From IMG/VR virus record IMGVR_UViG_3300011445_000601, positions 1 to 39,047 of that record: a stretch of DNA of 39,047 bases. One strand, written 5' to 3'. Both the position numbers and the translations under genes were made by a program. The DNA is from a virus. The notes beneath the pieces were generated by a model. That model worked only from the letters and a program-made list of their open reading frames with translations, made no database searches and was not told where the DNA came from. Positions 2,473 to 39,047 of this stretch are shown here, piece by piece (positions within the stretch are counted from its first letter, which is position 1; each line of letters opens with the position of its first letter).

Positions 2473-2684
2473 GCCCCTCCGACGTAGCCGCGCACAGAAT
2501 CCGCGACGTGATAGTCGAGCTGGATCTGGGGGTAAACGACGCTTGGCTGGCCGTTGTGCAGTGCTGCGCTAGCGTTGCTGTTGGCTGTGGCATGACGCTA
2601 GAGGAAACGCTGCATCGGGTAGCGAAAGCGTACGCGTTCATGGAGAAAGAATACGCCAAGGCCGAAGCCGAGGGGGAGTCGTGA
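2469..2684 (+). CDS. small helical hypothetical protein
   Basis: 71 residues from a TTG start that overlaps the upstream TGA (TTGA) and is preceded by a strong AAGGAGG Shine-Dalgarno. An ATG at 2415 in the same frame is possible but would overlap the previous gene by 58 bp. It is acidic and helix-rich, ending in a charged helix. No family was recognised. It is followed by a GTGA overlap with the scrambled nuclease gene. Confidence 0.6.
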   Translation: MSPSDVAAHRIRDVIVELDLGVNDAWLAVVQCCASVAVGCGMTLEETLHRVAKAYAFMEKEYAKAEAEGES

Positions 2685-3082
2685 GCGAAACCAAGCTCGT
2701 CTCCGCCATCCTCGACGCTGTTGCCCCAGCGCTGTTGCTCGTCGCTCTGAACGCCCTTCGCGTCTTTCACCTCGAGCGCCAAGAAGCGACCGTCGACGCA
2801 CGCGATGATGGATGCGCTCGCCGCAGAGCCTGGCGTCGTCGCGTGGCGCAACAGCGTCGGCGCTCGCGGGCATCGCCGCTTCGGTCTTGGCGTCGGGTCA
2901 GCCGACTCCACGGCGGTCACTACGTCATCGTGCGGTCGGTCGCTGCTGCGAGAAAGGCCGTGGCGTGGGCTCGACAGCGTGTGGAATGGACACGACAGCC
3001 ACCGCGCGATCCAGCCGCCAATTCTGCTACGTTGTCAAGGTCATCCGAGGTCAAATCGCGTATGGTCACGCGAAGGAGGTAG
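2681..3082 (+). pseudogene. scrambled VRR-NUC nuclease gene with inverted core
   Basis: The reading frame is open (133 residues, GTG start coupled to the upstream stop), but its middle does not look like protein. Four blocks of a VRR-NUC domain are present in the wrong arrangement. Block 1 (2681-2701, plus) starts MSETKLV. Block 2 (about 2799-2909, plus, but in another frame) encodes ALAAEPGVVAWRNSVG...FGLGVGSAD. Block 3 (about 2702-2808) lies on the MINUS strand and encodes the catalytic core with GRFLALEVKDAKG and QSDEQQRW. Block 4 (2912-3082, back in the starting frame) encodes GGHYVIVRSVAAARKA. Placed in order 1-2-3-4 the pieces join in frame as one VRR-NUC protein of about 134 residues. 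As it stands the gene cannot make the nuclease. Confidence 0.75.
2702..2808 (-). pseudogene. inverted catalytic core segment of the VRR-NUC gene
   Basis: Read on the minus strand, this segment gives IIACVDGRFLALEVKDAKG followed by VQSDEQQRWGNSVEDGG. It contains the D...ExK and Q residues expected of a PD-(D/E)XK VRR-NUC active site. The start of the segment and the start of block 2 share the same bases around 2799-2811, read in opposite directions (TCCATCATCGCGTG against CACGCGATGATGGA). A short inverted repeat may therefore have mediated the rearrangement. An assembly chimera is the main alternative. Confidence 0.7.
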
Positions 3083-3084
3083 GG

Positions 3085-3405
3085 ATGTTCAAGTATTGCA
3101 TCGGAACTCCTGTGAGGGTTGGCGGCAGCGATGCCATCGCTGAGGTTGCCGAACAGCACACATTCGACCACTCCGCGCATTACCTCGTCAGAATGCCAAG
3201 CGGTTCAGCCTGCATCTACCGCGAGAGCGAGCTGTCACTACCACCCAAGGGATTGTGGCCGGTGTCGTTCCCATGGCAAGAGAAGCGGGCAGACTCTCCG
3301 GGGGCCCCAGCCCACACCTCCCCCCGTGCGAGCACAGAGCCGTCCTGCGAGCACGGCCTGGTAGCGTCGCAGCTCAAGCGCGAGCTGGAGAACCTGAAGC
3401 GCTAG
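3085..3405 (+). CDS. small hypothetical protein, beta-barrel-like N-terminus
   Basis: 106 residues from an ATG 2 nt past the VRR-NUC stop, with AAGGAGG at 3073-3079. The first 55 residues (YCIGTPVRVGGSDAIAEV, AHYLVRM, CIYRESEL) look like an SH3/KOW-type barrel found in small phage proteins. The middle is Pro/Ser rich and the end is a charged helix (SQLKRELENLKR). No specific function was recognised. Confidence 0.7.
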   Translation: MFKYCIGTPVRVGGSDAIAEVAEQHTFDHSAHYLVRMPSGSACIYRESELSLPPKGLWPVSFPWQEKRADSPGAPAHTSPRASTEPSCEHGLVASQLKRELENLKR

Positions 3406-3466
3406 AAGACTTCAAGGCTAGCGTGTTTCGCGTTCAATCGTGGCAGTGGTTTCGTGGGGCTACCTC

Positions 3467-3853
3467 ATGACCCCCGCCGAGCGCACCGACCACAAGGAGC
3501 GTTCGCCTCACCACGCGCGCGCGATGGGACTGAGCGTGCGCCAGCCGTGGGCGTCGCTGATTGCGAGCGGGCGGAAGACGGTGGAGCTGCGCTCGTGGCA
3601 GACCGTGCACCGCGGCACGCTTGTAATCTGCTCGTCGCTCGCAATGTGGCCTGGCACTGACTTTGAGATTGGACCTCGTGGAGTCACGGTCTGCACGGTG
3701 GAATTGGTGGACGTGCGTGCAGTGCGAGACGAAGACGCAACGGCGGCTTGCTGCTCATGTGATGGGTTTCGCTTTGCGTGGGTGCTTCGTGCTGCGACTC
3801 CGACGGAGCATCTGCCTGTGCGCGGGAGGCTTGGGTTGTGGCCATGGAGCTGA
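3467..3853 (+). CDS. ASCH-domain protein
   Basis: 128 residues. Residues 20-60 read GLSVRQPWASLIASGRKTVE then LRSW, with the ASCH signature GxKxxExR at residues 35-42. ASCH domains bind RNA or modified nucleosides, and the small YqfB type hydrolyses N4-acetylcytidine; which activity applies here cannot be seen. The ATG at 3467 is preferred over a GTG at 3440. The stop overlaps the start of the GNAT-TerS gene, so the two are probably made together. A functional link between an acetyltransferase and an ASCH protein is possible but only inferred. Confidence 0.75.
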   Translation: MTPAERTDHKERSPHHARAMGLSVRQPWASLIASGRKTVELRSWQTVHRGTLVICSSLAMWPGTDFEIGPRGVTVCTVELVDVRAVRDEDATAACCSCDGFRFAWVLRAATPTEHLPVRGRLGLWPWS

Positions 3854-4737
3854 CGTTCGAATTGCTCGGGGCCGGGGATTACGAGCGAGCCAAGAAGGTT
3901 CTGGATCGAGCCAAACATCCCGGGTTCGTTGGCAGGGAGCTGTTTTTTCGGTGTGCAACCAATGGTGGTTGCATCGTGGCGGTGCGCGCGGGGCAGGATG
4001 TGGGTGTGGCGCTGGTGACAAAGGGAAAGTTACAAGCGCTATCGGTTGTGCAAGATGCACAGGGCGGAGGTGTGGGTAGGGCGCTGATGGGCCGGACTCG
4101 GCCGAAGTTCGTGAATGCGATCGGCGAGAAGATCGGCTGGTTTGAAAAACTCGGTTACAAATGCGTCGGCGCTCCACGCGTCGGCGCAAACGGCAAACAT
4201 TCGACGCAGCTGCTGGAACTTGTGGAGCCGGAGAAACTTTCCGGCTCGCCGCCAGCGGCAAAAGATACGCCGACAGAGCCTGCAAAGCCGCCGAATAGAC
4301 TGACCGCGGACGAGCAGGTCGACCATATCGTCAAGCTGATGGTGACGCGCGAGTGGCGGGCCGGGGCGTCGCACAAGGAATTGGCAAGCGCATGGGGATG
4401 CCACCCACGGACCGTGGGTGATCGAGCCATCATCGCGAGCGGCATTCTTGCTCGCACCGGTGGCCCATTGGAGCAGTGGGTGGAATCGAAGATGCGCGCA
4501 CTCGACGAGCTAGAAACGCAAGCGGCCAGCGATGGCAATGTCATTGCCGCAATCAAGGCGATCCAGCTGCAGATGGATATCCGCGGCGTAACATCGACAC
4601 GCAGGCAGAAGGACGACAAGCCGGCAGAACACGACGACGAATATGCCAAGCTGTCGAAAGAGGAACGCATCGTTCGTCTAAAGGCGGCGCTGGCCGAGGA
4701 GATGGCGGTAGAGGACGGCAGCAATGGGATGCACTGA
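3844..4737 (+). CDS. GNAT acetyltransferase fused to small-terminase-like domain
   Basis: 297 residues. Residues 1 to about 125 are a GNAT fold: acetyl-CoA motif A QDAQGGGVGRAL at 70-81 and the typical WFEKLGY at 99-105. After a Pro-rich linker (about 128-145), residues 148-297 contain a helix-turn-helix (SHKELASAWGCHPRTVGDRA) followed by long helices, as in small terminase subunits that bind the packaging site. It lies 1.3 kb upstream of the large terminase and no other TerS was seen, which supports the C-terminal call. The substrate of the GNAT half is unknown. The ATG at 3844 overlaps the ASCH gene by 10 bp; an earlier in-frame ATG at 3778 lies deep in that gene. Confidence 0.7.
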   Translation: MELTFELLGAGDYERAKKVLDRAKHPGFVGRELFFRCATNGGCIVAVRAGQDVGVALVTKGKLQALSVVQDAQGGGVGRALMGRTRPKFVNAIGEKIGWFEKLGYKCVGAPRVGANGKHSTQLLELVEPEKLSGSPPAAKDTPTEPAKPPNRLTADEQVDHIVKLMVTREWRAGASHKELASAWGCHPRTVGDRAIIASGILARTGGPLEQWVESKMRALDELETQAASDGNVIAAIKAIQLQMDIRGVTSTRRQKDDKPAEHDDEYAKLSKEERIVRLKAALAEEMAVEDGSNGMH

Positions 4738-5180: not shown

Positions 5181-5290
5181 TGGGCTATCGACTCAGGTTC
5201 TTCGCCGCGGCCGTGCTAGCGTCGCTGGCACGTAAGATCAACCGCGATGCGCTCAAGGCCGTGGCCGATGACGATTGGTGGTACTCATGA
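5180..5290 (+). CDS. 36-residue basic membrane-like peptide
   Basis: A short frame coupled on both sides (TGATG at the start, ATGA at the end). It has a hydrophobic FFAAAVLASLA stretch after a basic start, so it may sit in the membrane. It may also be only a spacer; the call rests on position and coupling. Confidence 0.4.
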   Translation: MGYRLRFFAAAVLASLARKINRDALKAVADDDWWYS

Positions 5291-5589
5291 AACTCTCGCG
5301 CGTCTGGCTCGACTTCGACTTCACGCACCCTCTGCTCGACGGCTCTCGCTCCCAGCTGTCAGAGGACGACTGCGCAGAGATGGGTGCGGCCGGCATGCGC
5401 TACGACCCAGCGACGCATAGCCTCATAATCGGAGAGAACCTCCACGGCATCGCGTGGAGCCGGGTGATACAATGGGAGGCGCTGGACATCCAACTTGTGT
5501 GCGGCGATTGCTCGAAGACGTTCAAAACAGCCCAGGCCCTCGGCTCCCACAGGCAATTCTGCAAGGGCAAGAAAGAGACGGCAGCGTAA
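5287..5589 (+). CDS. C2H2/C2HC-type zinc-finger protein
   Basis: 100 residues. The C-terminus carries CGDCSKTFKTAQALGSHRQF followed by C: C-x2-C, 12 residues, H-x3-C, a classical single zinc finger. The TAQALGSH core resembles the QALGGH finger known from plant proteins. The N-terminal 65 residues are a beta-rich region without a recognised family. It probably binds nucleic acid or a partner protein. The ATG at 5287 overlaps the preceding stop. Confidence 0.65.
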   Translation: MKLSRVWLDFDFTHPLLDGSRSQLSEDDCAEMGAAGMRYDPATHSLIIGENLHGIAWSRVIQWEALDIQLVCGDCSKTFKTAQALGSHRQFCKGKKETAA

Positions 5590-6044
5590 TGCTGAAAGTT
5601 GGAGACGAATACGTTGCGTGTTTCGTTACCGGCGACAGCTTCTCCAATCCTGGGCGCCTAGTTCTGACAGCAACGGTGGCCGTCGAGGCGCTTGATGCTG
5701 GTGGCGCCTTGCTTAGGCTGAGGGACGAGGCCAACGCGCTATCGCTACGTGAGGCTGCCTACGAGGTGCGGATACCGGGCACATTCATCGCTGGTCAGAT
5801 GACGGCGAAGTTGACCGGCAGCGTGCGTATCGAATGGTTTGTGCATCCGAAGGCGTGTGGAAACTGCGGCAGAGACGGCGGCGAGCTTATGGTCAATGGT
5901 CAAGGCGGCGACAGTTTCTACGCATGCGCTGTATGCCAGGCGTGCGAAACCTGCGGCGGCGCCGGCTGGTACTACGACGACTGCGGACGCTGCTCGGTCG
6001 GCTGTGAGGAGTGCGCCGAACGACAGCGTCATCAGCGGCTTTGA
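5589..6044 (+). CDS. Cys-rich zinc-ribbon protein upstream of terminase
   Basis: 151 residues. Residues 1-95 are a beta-rich domain. Residues 97-145 contain CGNCGRDGG, CAVCQACETCGGAGW and CGRCSVGCEEC, that is, several CxxC pairs like the DnaJ zinc-binding region. It starts one base into the previous stop (TAATG) and ends directly before the terminase ATG. It is probably a metal-binding accessory protein; exact role unknown. Confidence 0.65.
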   Translation: MLKVGDEYVACFVTGDSFSNPGRLVLTATVAVEALDAGGALLRLRDEANALSLREAAYEVRIPGTFIAGQMTAKLTGSVRIEWFVHPKACGNCGRDGGELMVNGQGGDSFYACAVCQACETCGGAGWYYDDCGRCSVGCEECAERQRHQRL

Positions 6045-7472
6045 ATGTCGACCGCAGCGCTGCTCAGGGCTCACGATCGCATGCGGCCACGGCGGCGCTG
6101 GCTCGATGGCCTCTTCCCGAAGCAACGTGAGTTTGTAGACGACCCCGCGAAGGAAAAGGCGGCGTTAAAGGGTCGGCGCGGAGGGGGGACGTGGGCGGGC
6201 GCCGTGGGGCTCTACGACAAGGCGCGCGAGGTGCGTTGCCAATGCCCCTACATCGCCCTGTCCGCGGTGCAGGCGAGGCGAATCATGTGGCCGGTCGTGA
6301 AGGAGGTAAACGACCGATATCGGCTCGGGATGAAGATGAACGACCACGAGCTGATCGCCGAGGTCCCAGAGACGGGCAGTCAGATCTTCCTCGTTGGGGG
6401 CGACGACATGCGCAAGGTCGAGGCGCTCCGCGGGGGCAAGTACGGCCGCGTGGTCATCGACGAGCCCGGCAGCTTCCCGAAGACGCTGCTTCGGTACATG
6501 TCCGACGACGTACTCGACGCGGCACTGCTCGACCTCGACGGGGACAAATGGCTCATCGGCTCCCCCAACGCGGCGTGCGTGGGGCACTTTCACGACCTTA
6601 CCACCGGGAAAAACCCTGAGGTCCAGAAGATACCCACGTACCACTGGACGGTGCTGGATAACCCCTTCATCCCCCACGCCGCCGAGTGGCTGAAGCGCAA
6701 GCGGGAATCGAAGAAGTGGGCGGCCGATAACCCCGTCTACCTGCGCGAATACATGGCGCAGTGGATTCGGGACGTCTCGTCGCTGGTATTCCGGTTCGAC
6801 CGGGCCCGCCACATGGTCAACGCCGTGCCTCAGGGGCTCGCTGGCGTCGTCGGCGTCGACTTGGGCAGCTCGGCCAAGGTTGAGTCGATGGCCTTCTCCA
6901 CGCTCTTCTGGGAGCGGTACAGCAAGGTCGTTACCATCGCCCGGGCCACCAAGCACAAGGACATGGCGCCGAGCGATGGGGCCGATCACCTTCGCGCCCT
7001 GTTCGCTGAGTTCCCCGCGCTCCGCTACGCCGTCGTCGACGAAGGGGGGCTCGGCAAGGGCTACACGTCCGAGTGGAGGCGCCGACACAGCCTCGCCGTG
7101 GTCGCTGCGCAGAAGACAGAGCGAAACGCCTACATCGAGAACATGAACGACGCCTTTGACGACGATCTGATTAAACTCTACGAGCCGGACACCAGACCGC
7201 TCGTCGACGAGCTCGAGCTGGCCCAGTGGGACGAAGACCGCAAGGACATCGACGACCGGTTTCTCTGCCACAGCATCGATGCGAGTCTGTACGGCTGGCG
7301 CGATTGCCACGCCTGGGGGGAGCCGACCGCGCCGGCAGACAAGCCGCAGAAGGGTACGCCGGAGTACGACGACATGATCCGGCTGAAGGAGCGCGAGGAG
7401 TCGATGGCCCGCGTTCGCAAGGCCCGCGAGCAGAGGCTGCGGGCGTCAATGCACGGACGCTGGGCTCGGTGA
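6045..7472 (+). CDS. terL: terminase large subunit (ATPase-nuclease)
   Basis: 475 residues, the motor that packages DNA into procapsids and cuts it. The ATPase half has a Walker A-like GRRGGGTW at residues 43-50 and a clear Walker B RVVIDEPGSF at 135-144 (D139, E140). The nuclease half starts near residue 262 with GVVGVDLGSSAKVES and later YAVVDEGGLGKGY, matching the RNase H-like acidic residues. The Walker A lacks the lysine in its usual place before the T/S (GGGT instead of GKT/S); K42 lies just before the loop. The gene is immediately downstream of the Cys-rich gene, and the portal follows after one small gene. Confidence 0.85.
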   Translation: MSTAALLRAHDRMRPRRRWLDGLFPKQREFVDDPAKEKAALKGRRGGGTWAGAVGLYDKAREVRCQCPYIALSAVQARRIMWPVVKEVNDRYRLGMKMNDHELIAEVPETGSQIFLVGGDDMRKVEALRGGKYGRVVIDEPGSFPKTLLRYMSDDVLDAALLDLDGDKWLIGSPNAACVGHFHDLTTGKNPEVQKIPTYHWTVLDNPFIPHAAEWLKRKRESKKWAADNPVYLREYMAQWIRDVSSLVFRFDRARHMVNAVPQGLAGVVGVDLGSSAKVESMAFSTLFWERYSKVVTIARATKHKDMAPSDGADHLRALFAEFPALRYAVVDEGGLGKGYTSEWRRRHSLAVVAAQKTERNAYIENMNDAFDDDLIKLYEPDTRPLVDELELAQWDEDRKDIDDRFLCHSIDASLYGWRDCHAWGEPTAPADKPQKGTPEYDDMIRLKEREESMARVRKAREQRLRASMHGRWAR

Positions 7473-38381: not shown

Positions 38382-38402
38382 ACCGAAGGAACGGTGACGA
38401 CA

Positions 38403-39047
38403 ATGGCCAAAAATAAGCTCTACACGTTGACCGACGAGCACCGCGCGCAGCTGAAGCCGTGGGCCGACAAGTGGACATCGAACGCGATGAGCACCGCGCC
38501 GATGACCGCGGACGATAAGCAAATCTGCGCCGATGCCGTGCGCGGCATGTACGCAAGTGCCAAGTTGGAGCCACCGAAGGCAATTGTCTTTTGCGCAAGT
38601 CCGCTGACTGCTGCGCTCGCGAGCGGCATTGCCTGCGGTGTCTGGTACCTGCGAAAGCATCCTGAGCTCCACCAGCGTCTTTTTGGCCAGAGCATAGCGG
38701 AGCGTGAATTGATGTCCGCGATCGGGCCGGCGTGCGCAATTGCGGTCGCATCAGCAAGGCGGAGGTTGGCGACTTTGGTCGTCCAGCCTCCGCCGCCAGC
38801 GACCTACGCCGCGGCGACCGACGACGCGACCTACGCCGCGACCGACGCCGCGACCCGCGACGCGACCGACGCCGCGACCTACGCCGCGACCGGCGCCGCG
38901 ACCGGCGCCGCGACCCACGCCGCGACCCGCGACGCGACCGGCGCCGCGACCGGCGCCGCGACCTACGCCGCGACCGACGACGCGACCGACGACGCGACCG
39001 ACGCCGCGACCCACGCCGCGACCGACGACGCGACCGACGACGCGACC
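38403..39047 (+). CDS. DUF6745-like protein with tetrapeptide repeats, N-terminal part (continues at base 2)
   Basis: 215 codons from the ATG at 38403 to the window end, which falls exactly on a codon boundary. Residues 1-130 form a helical domain (LKPWADKWTSNAMSTAPMTA; AIVFCASPLTAALASGIACG), followed by PPPP and then the A-(A/D)-T-X tetrapeptides. The frame joins the C-terminal part at base 2 if the ends overlap by the 4 bases GACC. With the C-terminal part this gives a protein of at least about 550 residues, its repeat number uncertain. The N-terminal motif order is that of DUF6745-type proteins. Confidence 0.75.
   Translation, partial: MAKNKLYTLTDEHRAQLKPWADKWTSNAMSTAPMTADDKQICADAVRGMYASAKLEPPKAIVFCASPLTAALASGIACGVWYLRKHPELHQRLFGQSIAERELMSAIGPACAIAVASARRRLATLVVQPPPPATYAAATDDATYAATDAATRDATDAATYAATGAATGAATHAATRDATGAATGAATYAATDDATDDATDAATHAATDDATDDAT
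38799..39047 (+). repeat. 12-bp tandem repeat tract (right half)
   Basis: About 20 units of the same 12-bp repeat as at 1-340, in the same coding phase relative to the gene (A-T-X-A). The last 45 bases repeat sequence also found inside the first 65 bases of the window, but no long exact end overlap exists. This supports a break inside one tract rather than a terminal duplication. Confidence 0.95.

Follow-up and report, generated by a model that had tools for sequence, protein, structure and literature searches.

A GNAT domain fused to a putative small terminase subunit upstream of terL in a phage contig

Introduction

Small terminase subunits (TerS) bind DNA, form rings and recruit the large terminase subunit (TerL) by their C-terminal tail, and are usually DNA-recognition adaptors without an enzyme of their own. 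The regulation of the packaging start is a poorly understood step. Known TerS proteins comprise a helix-turn-helix (HTH), a central helical hairpin and a flexible C-terminal part with a helix, and strong divergence is typical of them (PMC9611059). Acetyltransferases of the GNAT superfamily are also encoded by phages: Rac, a GNAT of phiKMV-like phages, acts on host RNA polymerase alpha (PMC7552054), and Mom of phage Mu and relatives is a base modifier, which in jumbo phages is typically fused to endonuclease domains (PMC7824862).

The stretch of DNA analysed here, referred to as the window, comprises a complete IMG/VR record (39,047 bases), in which a gene upstream of terL encodes a GNAT domain followed by a TerS-like half. 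Like phage TerS proteins (PMC9611059), this half, a domain of approximately 16 kDa, is predicted to consist of an HTH, a hairpin and a flexible part with a helix, and its gene lies upstream of terL; unlike them, the protein carries an extra N-terminal GNAT domain of approximately 130 aa, and no match to them was detectable in sequence or fold. Rac (PMC7552054) is likewise a phage-encoded GNAT, but only the GNAT of the window is fused to a TerS-like protein. With Mom (PMC7824862) it shares the GNAT superfamily, the encoding by a phage and the vicinity of DNA-handling parts, whereas a match to a Mom profile is lacking. No published description of a GNAT–TerS fusion was found in the open-access literature. 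As a new feature, sequence comparison showed that in two further phages, L024 and L027, the same GNAT is fused N-terminally to a small protein whose gene immediately precedes terL. If the reading given below is true, neither a small terminase with an enzyme of its own nor a connection of acetyl-CoA to genome packaging has a precedent in the published literature searched.

Results and discussion

The fusion gene (positions 3844–4737, + strand) is a single stop-free frame of 297 aa. Its ATG at 3844 agrees with the start sites of both relatives, L024 and L027; an alternative in-frame GTG start at 3778 would give a protein of 319 aa. The fusion was also present, at 100% protein identity, in L001, a separate assembly with a handful of nearby base differences to the window, and an assembly chimera as source of the fusion was ruled out on this ground.

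The GNAT domain (3844–4236, + strand) covers residues 1–131 and is supported by a Pfam match, pLDDT, fold matches and the related domains of L024 and L027. Over residues 41–106, the isolated domain was matched by Pfam Acetyltransf_7 with an E-value of 1.9e-5 and 25.3 bits, just under the curated cut-off of 27, and a match to the NCBIfam YjaB model was obtained as well (E 2.8e-5). In the AF2 model of the whole protein, which was built from an eight-sequence alignment, pLDDT was approximately 90 over most of residues 1–120. Fold comparison of residues 1–130 (VIA) returned RimI, Naa50, Ard1 and many other GNATs with Z 14–16 and, in most rows, an rmsd of 2.1–2.5. The top fold matches were protein acetyltransferases; many GNATs tie within Z 1–2, so that the fold rank does not reveal the substrate. 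A BFVD search also matched GNATs, and no TerS fusion was recognised in it. The acetyl-CoA binding motif Q-x-x-G-x-G (4060–4077, + strand; residues 73–78), which corresponds to the Q/R-x-x-G-x-G/A motif of the GNAT superfamily, is kept in all three GNATs as QGGGVG in the window and as QGRGVG and QGMGIG in the others. A GNAT fold with intact acetyl-CoA motif, as proposed in the preliminary description of this DNA, was thereby confirmed.

Compared with YjaB/RimI-type GNATs, of which E. coli YjaB gave the best PDB sequence match (E 1.7e-5) and RimI and Naa50 the best fold matches, the window protein differs by a shorter helix3–strand5 region, by the fusion and by one catalytic position. Tyrosine is the general acid in many GNATs; at its usual position (YjaB reference: FYKKVGF) Phe is found in all three phage GNATs, so that acetyltransferase activity is not assured, and no canonical Glu base was recognised in the three. 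Residues 12–41, within a region that helps to shape the acceptor site in GNATs, were the most conserved part, with 23 of 30 positions invariant among the three domains, compared with 44 of 96 outside this stretch (Fisher p 0.003). In the comparison of the GNAT genes, divergence at third codon positions is roughly double that at first and second ones (0.61–0.64 vs. 0.23–0.32), a pattern that fits purifying selection on the protein. The GNAT gene of L027 shows an 18-base tandem duplication (7157–7192), which repeats GFVGR within the most conserved stretch.

The GNAT domain is followed by a Pro-rich linker (4237–4296, + strand; about residues 132–151), which ends exactly at the start of the stand-alone relatives described below; pLDDT in the linker region was below 50 (residues 131–142) in the AF2 model. 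The small-terminase-like domain (4297–4734, + strand; residues 152–297) has stand-alone syntenic homologues in L002, L003, L004, L010, L013 and L014, referred to as sister phages. Its predicted HTH (4306–4458, + strand; domain helices 4–16, 23–33 and 37–54; pLDDT 84–92) was matched weakly, below cut-off, by Pfam HTH_23 (E 0.016). It is followed by a helical hairpin (4465–4584, + strand; domain helices 57–79 and 82–96; pLDDT 61–71) as putative oligomerisation core and, after a flexible linker, by a C-terminal helix (4657–4719, + strand; domain helix 121–141), a putative TerL-binding tail and the most conserved part among the relatives. Hairpin and flexible C-terminal moiety together were predicted at pLDDT 41–73. 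HTH and helices appeared in both models, that of the whole protein (HTH pLDDT approximately 84) and that of the C-terminal domain. The whole-protein model had lower confidence outside the GNAT and the HTH. Structure prediction of the two halves, which had been suggested beforehand, thus yielded a GNAT fold and an HTH with helices, and the earlier reading of a Pro-rich linker followed by an HTH and further helices holds.

No match of the C-terminal half to any known TerS sequence family was obtained, and no TerS was among the matches of the C-terminal domain in Foldseek and VIA; HTH regulators, of the YlxM type and others, were among the weak structural matches. Among the genes tested, no second TerS candidate was recognised elsewhere in the window, in agreement with the earlier statement that no other TerS is visible. 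For an internal start that would produce the TerS-like domain alone, only a CTG at 4300 is rightly placed, and no clear ribosome-binding site was seen. The idea that the 3' end region of the gene conceals a packaging site was rejected, since synonymous codons there are no more conserved than in other genes.

The large terminase gene terL (6045–7472, + strand) was identified by the PHROG terminase large subunit profile (E 8.3e-32), and TerL of L002 and of L003 is identical to that of the window. At the same place upstream of terL, both phages encode a stand-alone protein 56–62% identical to the C-terminal half of the fusion, with the last 50 residues nearly the same. Further stand-alone homologues, with identity down to 35%, are present in L004, L010, L013 and L014, and the start Met of the L004 protein aligns with the first residues after the window linker (CTG at 4300). 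The GNAT and the ASCH gene are absent from the records of all six sister phages, several of which are fragments. In the window and in the six sister contigs, the TerS-like gene is separated from terL by several small genes. One small protein encoded there (5275–5589), also found in sister phages, has a zinc-finger-like C2H2-type end (Pfam zf-C2H2_6, E 6.5e-4, below cut-off).

Among the sister phages, the TerS-like gene is paired with different TerL cores, and the conservation of its tail tracks the TerL tail, not the TerL core. Between L004 and the window, identity is 30% in the TerL core and 69% in the last 60 residues of TerL (window 7287–7472, L004 5691–5876), and the TerS-like tails share 45 of 51 residues; between L014 and the window it is 82% in the TerL core, 43% in the TerL tail and 35% in the TerS-like protein. 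In this small sample, the covariation fits a tail-to-tail contact of TerS and TerL. Judged by where its gene lies, by the predicted layout and by covariation with the tail of TerL, the C-terminal half is probably a small terminase. The preliminary assignment to TerS is upheld in these three respects, whereas neither a TerS family nor a solved TerS fold was matched.

In blastn, colinearity of the window with L002 and L003 ends at 3276 and restarts at 4548. The ASCH gene, the GNAT domain, the linker and the beginning of the TerS-like domain lie in between (3277–4547) and arrived together as one swapped segment. At 2681–3082, a nuclease-like gene that is intact in L002 (7114–7518) is broken by a small inversion: positions 2714–2810 match the reversed L002 positions 7338–7242 and are followed by a forward copy of 7147–7242. 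The broken gene reflects either a rearrangement or a local assembly error.

Relatives of the GNAT were searched for in 2.9 million viral contigs. L024 was found by a degenerate-motif scan and L027 by a two-sequence profile, and a broader final motif scan returned only L024, L027 and L001. All GNAT members found in these contigs are fusions to proteins at the TerS position, and no stand-alone copy was found among them. In L024, the gene order is ASCH (41-base overlap), GNAT with linker and a helical-looking half, adjoining terL, and portal; in L027 it is DNA methyltransferase, GNAT with linker and an HTH-looking half, and terL, which overlaps the 3' end of the fusion. The GNATs of the window, L024 and L027 are 59–65% identical (shuffle z 63–78), and the TerL proteins and C-terminal halves of the three phages were not clearly above shuffles (z <3). 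For the C-terminal halves of L024 and L027 no relatives were found in phages, and no convincing match was obtained either in profile comparisons or with the genes that precede terL in phages whose TerL is related; a match of A2 to the L027 half around a shared R-T-G-x-P stretch (E 0.017, single comparison) is suggestive only. GenBank phages gave no relatives, plasmids only a distant acetyltransferase in Sphingobium, and bacterial genomes none in two scans of limited sensitivity.

As the same domain sits on different packaging proteins in two phages unrelated to that of the window, chance is an unlikely source of the pairing, and by these comparisons the GNAT is a rare, mobile module that unrelated phages keep on proteins at the TerS position. 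Only three lineages with the fusion are known; they may go back either to a single origin, after which the C-terminal half was exchanged, or to several origins.

The neighbouring ASCH-domain gene (3524–3853, + strand; ATG at 3524, 109 aa; Pfam ASCH, E 5.1e-11) overlaps the GNAT start by 10 bases, an overlap that had been noted before. The ASCH protein of L024 is 47% identical, and its gene likewise overlaps the GNAT gene; in L027 an ASCH gene is absent. Since the genes overlap in two of the three phages, a functional partnership of ASCH and GNAT may exist. A connection to N4-acetylcytidine hydrolase, which the preliminary description had put forward for this class, was not supported by comparison: the window ASCH matches the ASC-1/TTHA0113 type (E 2e-7 to 3e-6) and is set apart from the YqfB amidohydrolase branch. 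That branch requires Lys21, Thr24, Arg26 and Glu74 (PMC6972931, PMC9599836), with Lys21-x-x-Thr24-x-Arg26 as the YqfB triad (PMC6972931). The octapeptides of the two phage ASCH proteins contain K-T-V-E-L-R and K-T-L-E-V-R, in which Lys and Arg are kept and Glu occupies the position of the nucleophile Thr24; with this replacement in both proteins, N4-acetylcytidine hydrolase activity is not supported.

Taken together, sequences and models argue, by a modest degree, for a gene that encodes a TerS with an N-terminal GNAT module, i.e. a predicted acetyltransferase tethered to the packaging-initiation complex. The C-terminal half would bind phage DNA via its HTH, form a ring and recruit TerL through the C-terminal tail, whereby each subunit would contribute one GNAT domain on a flexible linker and these domains would surround the packaging complex and move acetyl groups from acetyl-CoA onto a target near it. 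Candidate targets comprise the terminase, the portal and proteins of the procapsid, as well as DNA-binding proteins of the host that sit on the concatemer; their acetylation would permit or adjust packaging, or free the DNA of bound proteins. Our leading guess is a protein amine as the target: a protein is favoured because the best fold matches are protein acetyltransferases and Rac acts on a host protein (PMC7552054), and a DNA base is less probable, as an enzyme held on TerS would have few sites within reach and no profile of base-modifying enzymes was matched. It is a further, tentative and somewhat doubtful proposal that the TerS ring acetylates a component of the packaging machinery, a nucleoid protein of the host or the DNA end, and thereby determines the timing of packaging or the choice of the DNA that is packaged. 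A conserved enzyme-like domain on TerS in three unrelated phages suggests that some phages may run a reaction at the packaging start. The GNAT module is small and separable, and L002, with an identical TerL and TerS alone, offers a natural control.

A different reading of the C-terminal half, as a transcription regulator or other HTH protein, would agree with the missing TerS family match and with the YlxM-type and other HTH regulators among the weak structural matches. It is made unlikely by the syntenic position of the corresponding gene ahead of terL in all sister phages, by the TerS-like layout, by the co-conservation with the TerL tail, and by L024 and L027, in which the gene of the fused protein directly borders terL or overlaps it. 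On the side of the GNAT, a passenger was considered: a mobile gene that was inserted in front of TerS and became fused to it by loss of the stop codon. Its product would have a host protein or a small molecule as its target, and the fusion would serve co-expression only, with no role in packaging. GNAT and ASCH did arrive by a segment swap, as morons do, the sister phages are devoid of the GNAT, and phage GNATs acting on the host are known (PMC7552054, PMC7824862). Against this, the fusion is kept in the same order beside terL in three phages that are unrelated in terL and in the C-terminal half, and no copy was found on its own, though a passenger would be expected to occur separately at least sometimes; on the whole we regard a passenger as unlikely.

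If the GNAT does belong to a TerS, it could still be no enzyme, binding CoA or a partner as a sensor, docking or oligomerisation part. The Phe in place of the catalytic Tyr in all three domains and the lack of a recognised canonical Glu base speak for this, but all three retain the acetyl-CoA motif, and conservation peaks in the segment on the acceptor side, as would be expected if a substrate has been kept, which leaves a non-enzymatic role improbable. Mom-like acylation of DNA bases at or near the packaging site, by which the DNA end would be marked or protected and the mark read or removed by the ASCH protein, appears very improbable. The fusion to a DNA-binding domain, the ASCH overlap in two of three phages, the DNA methyltransferase as the upstream gene in L027 instead, and the modification of adenine by Mom-type GNATs (PMC7824862) are in line with it. 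However, no Mom profile in PHROGs, Pfam or NCBIfam and no other base-modifying profile was matched, the ASCH protein is without the YqfB nucleophile Thr (PMC6972931), and the few sites within reach of a TerS-tethered enzyme would be poor for genome-wide protection. The TerS with a GNAT module of predicted acetyltransferase activity is retained as the preferred reading.

Two further features were observed in addition. Approximately 270 bases of L001 (2497–2770), located at window position 5856, are absent from the window, and a similar stretch occurs in L003. At 38394–39047, an ORF with many short Ala/Thr/Asp-rich repeats runs off the end of the window.
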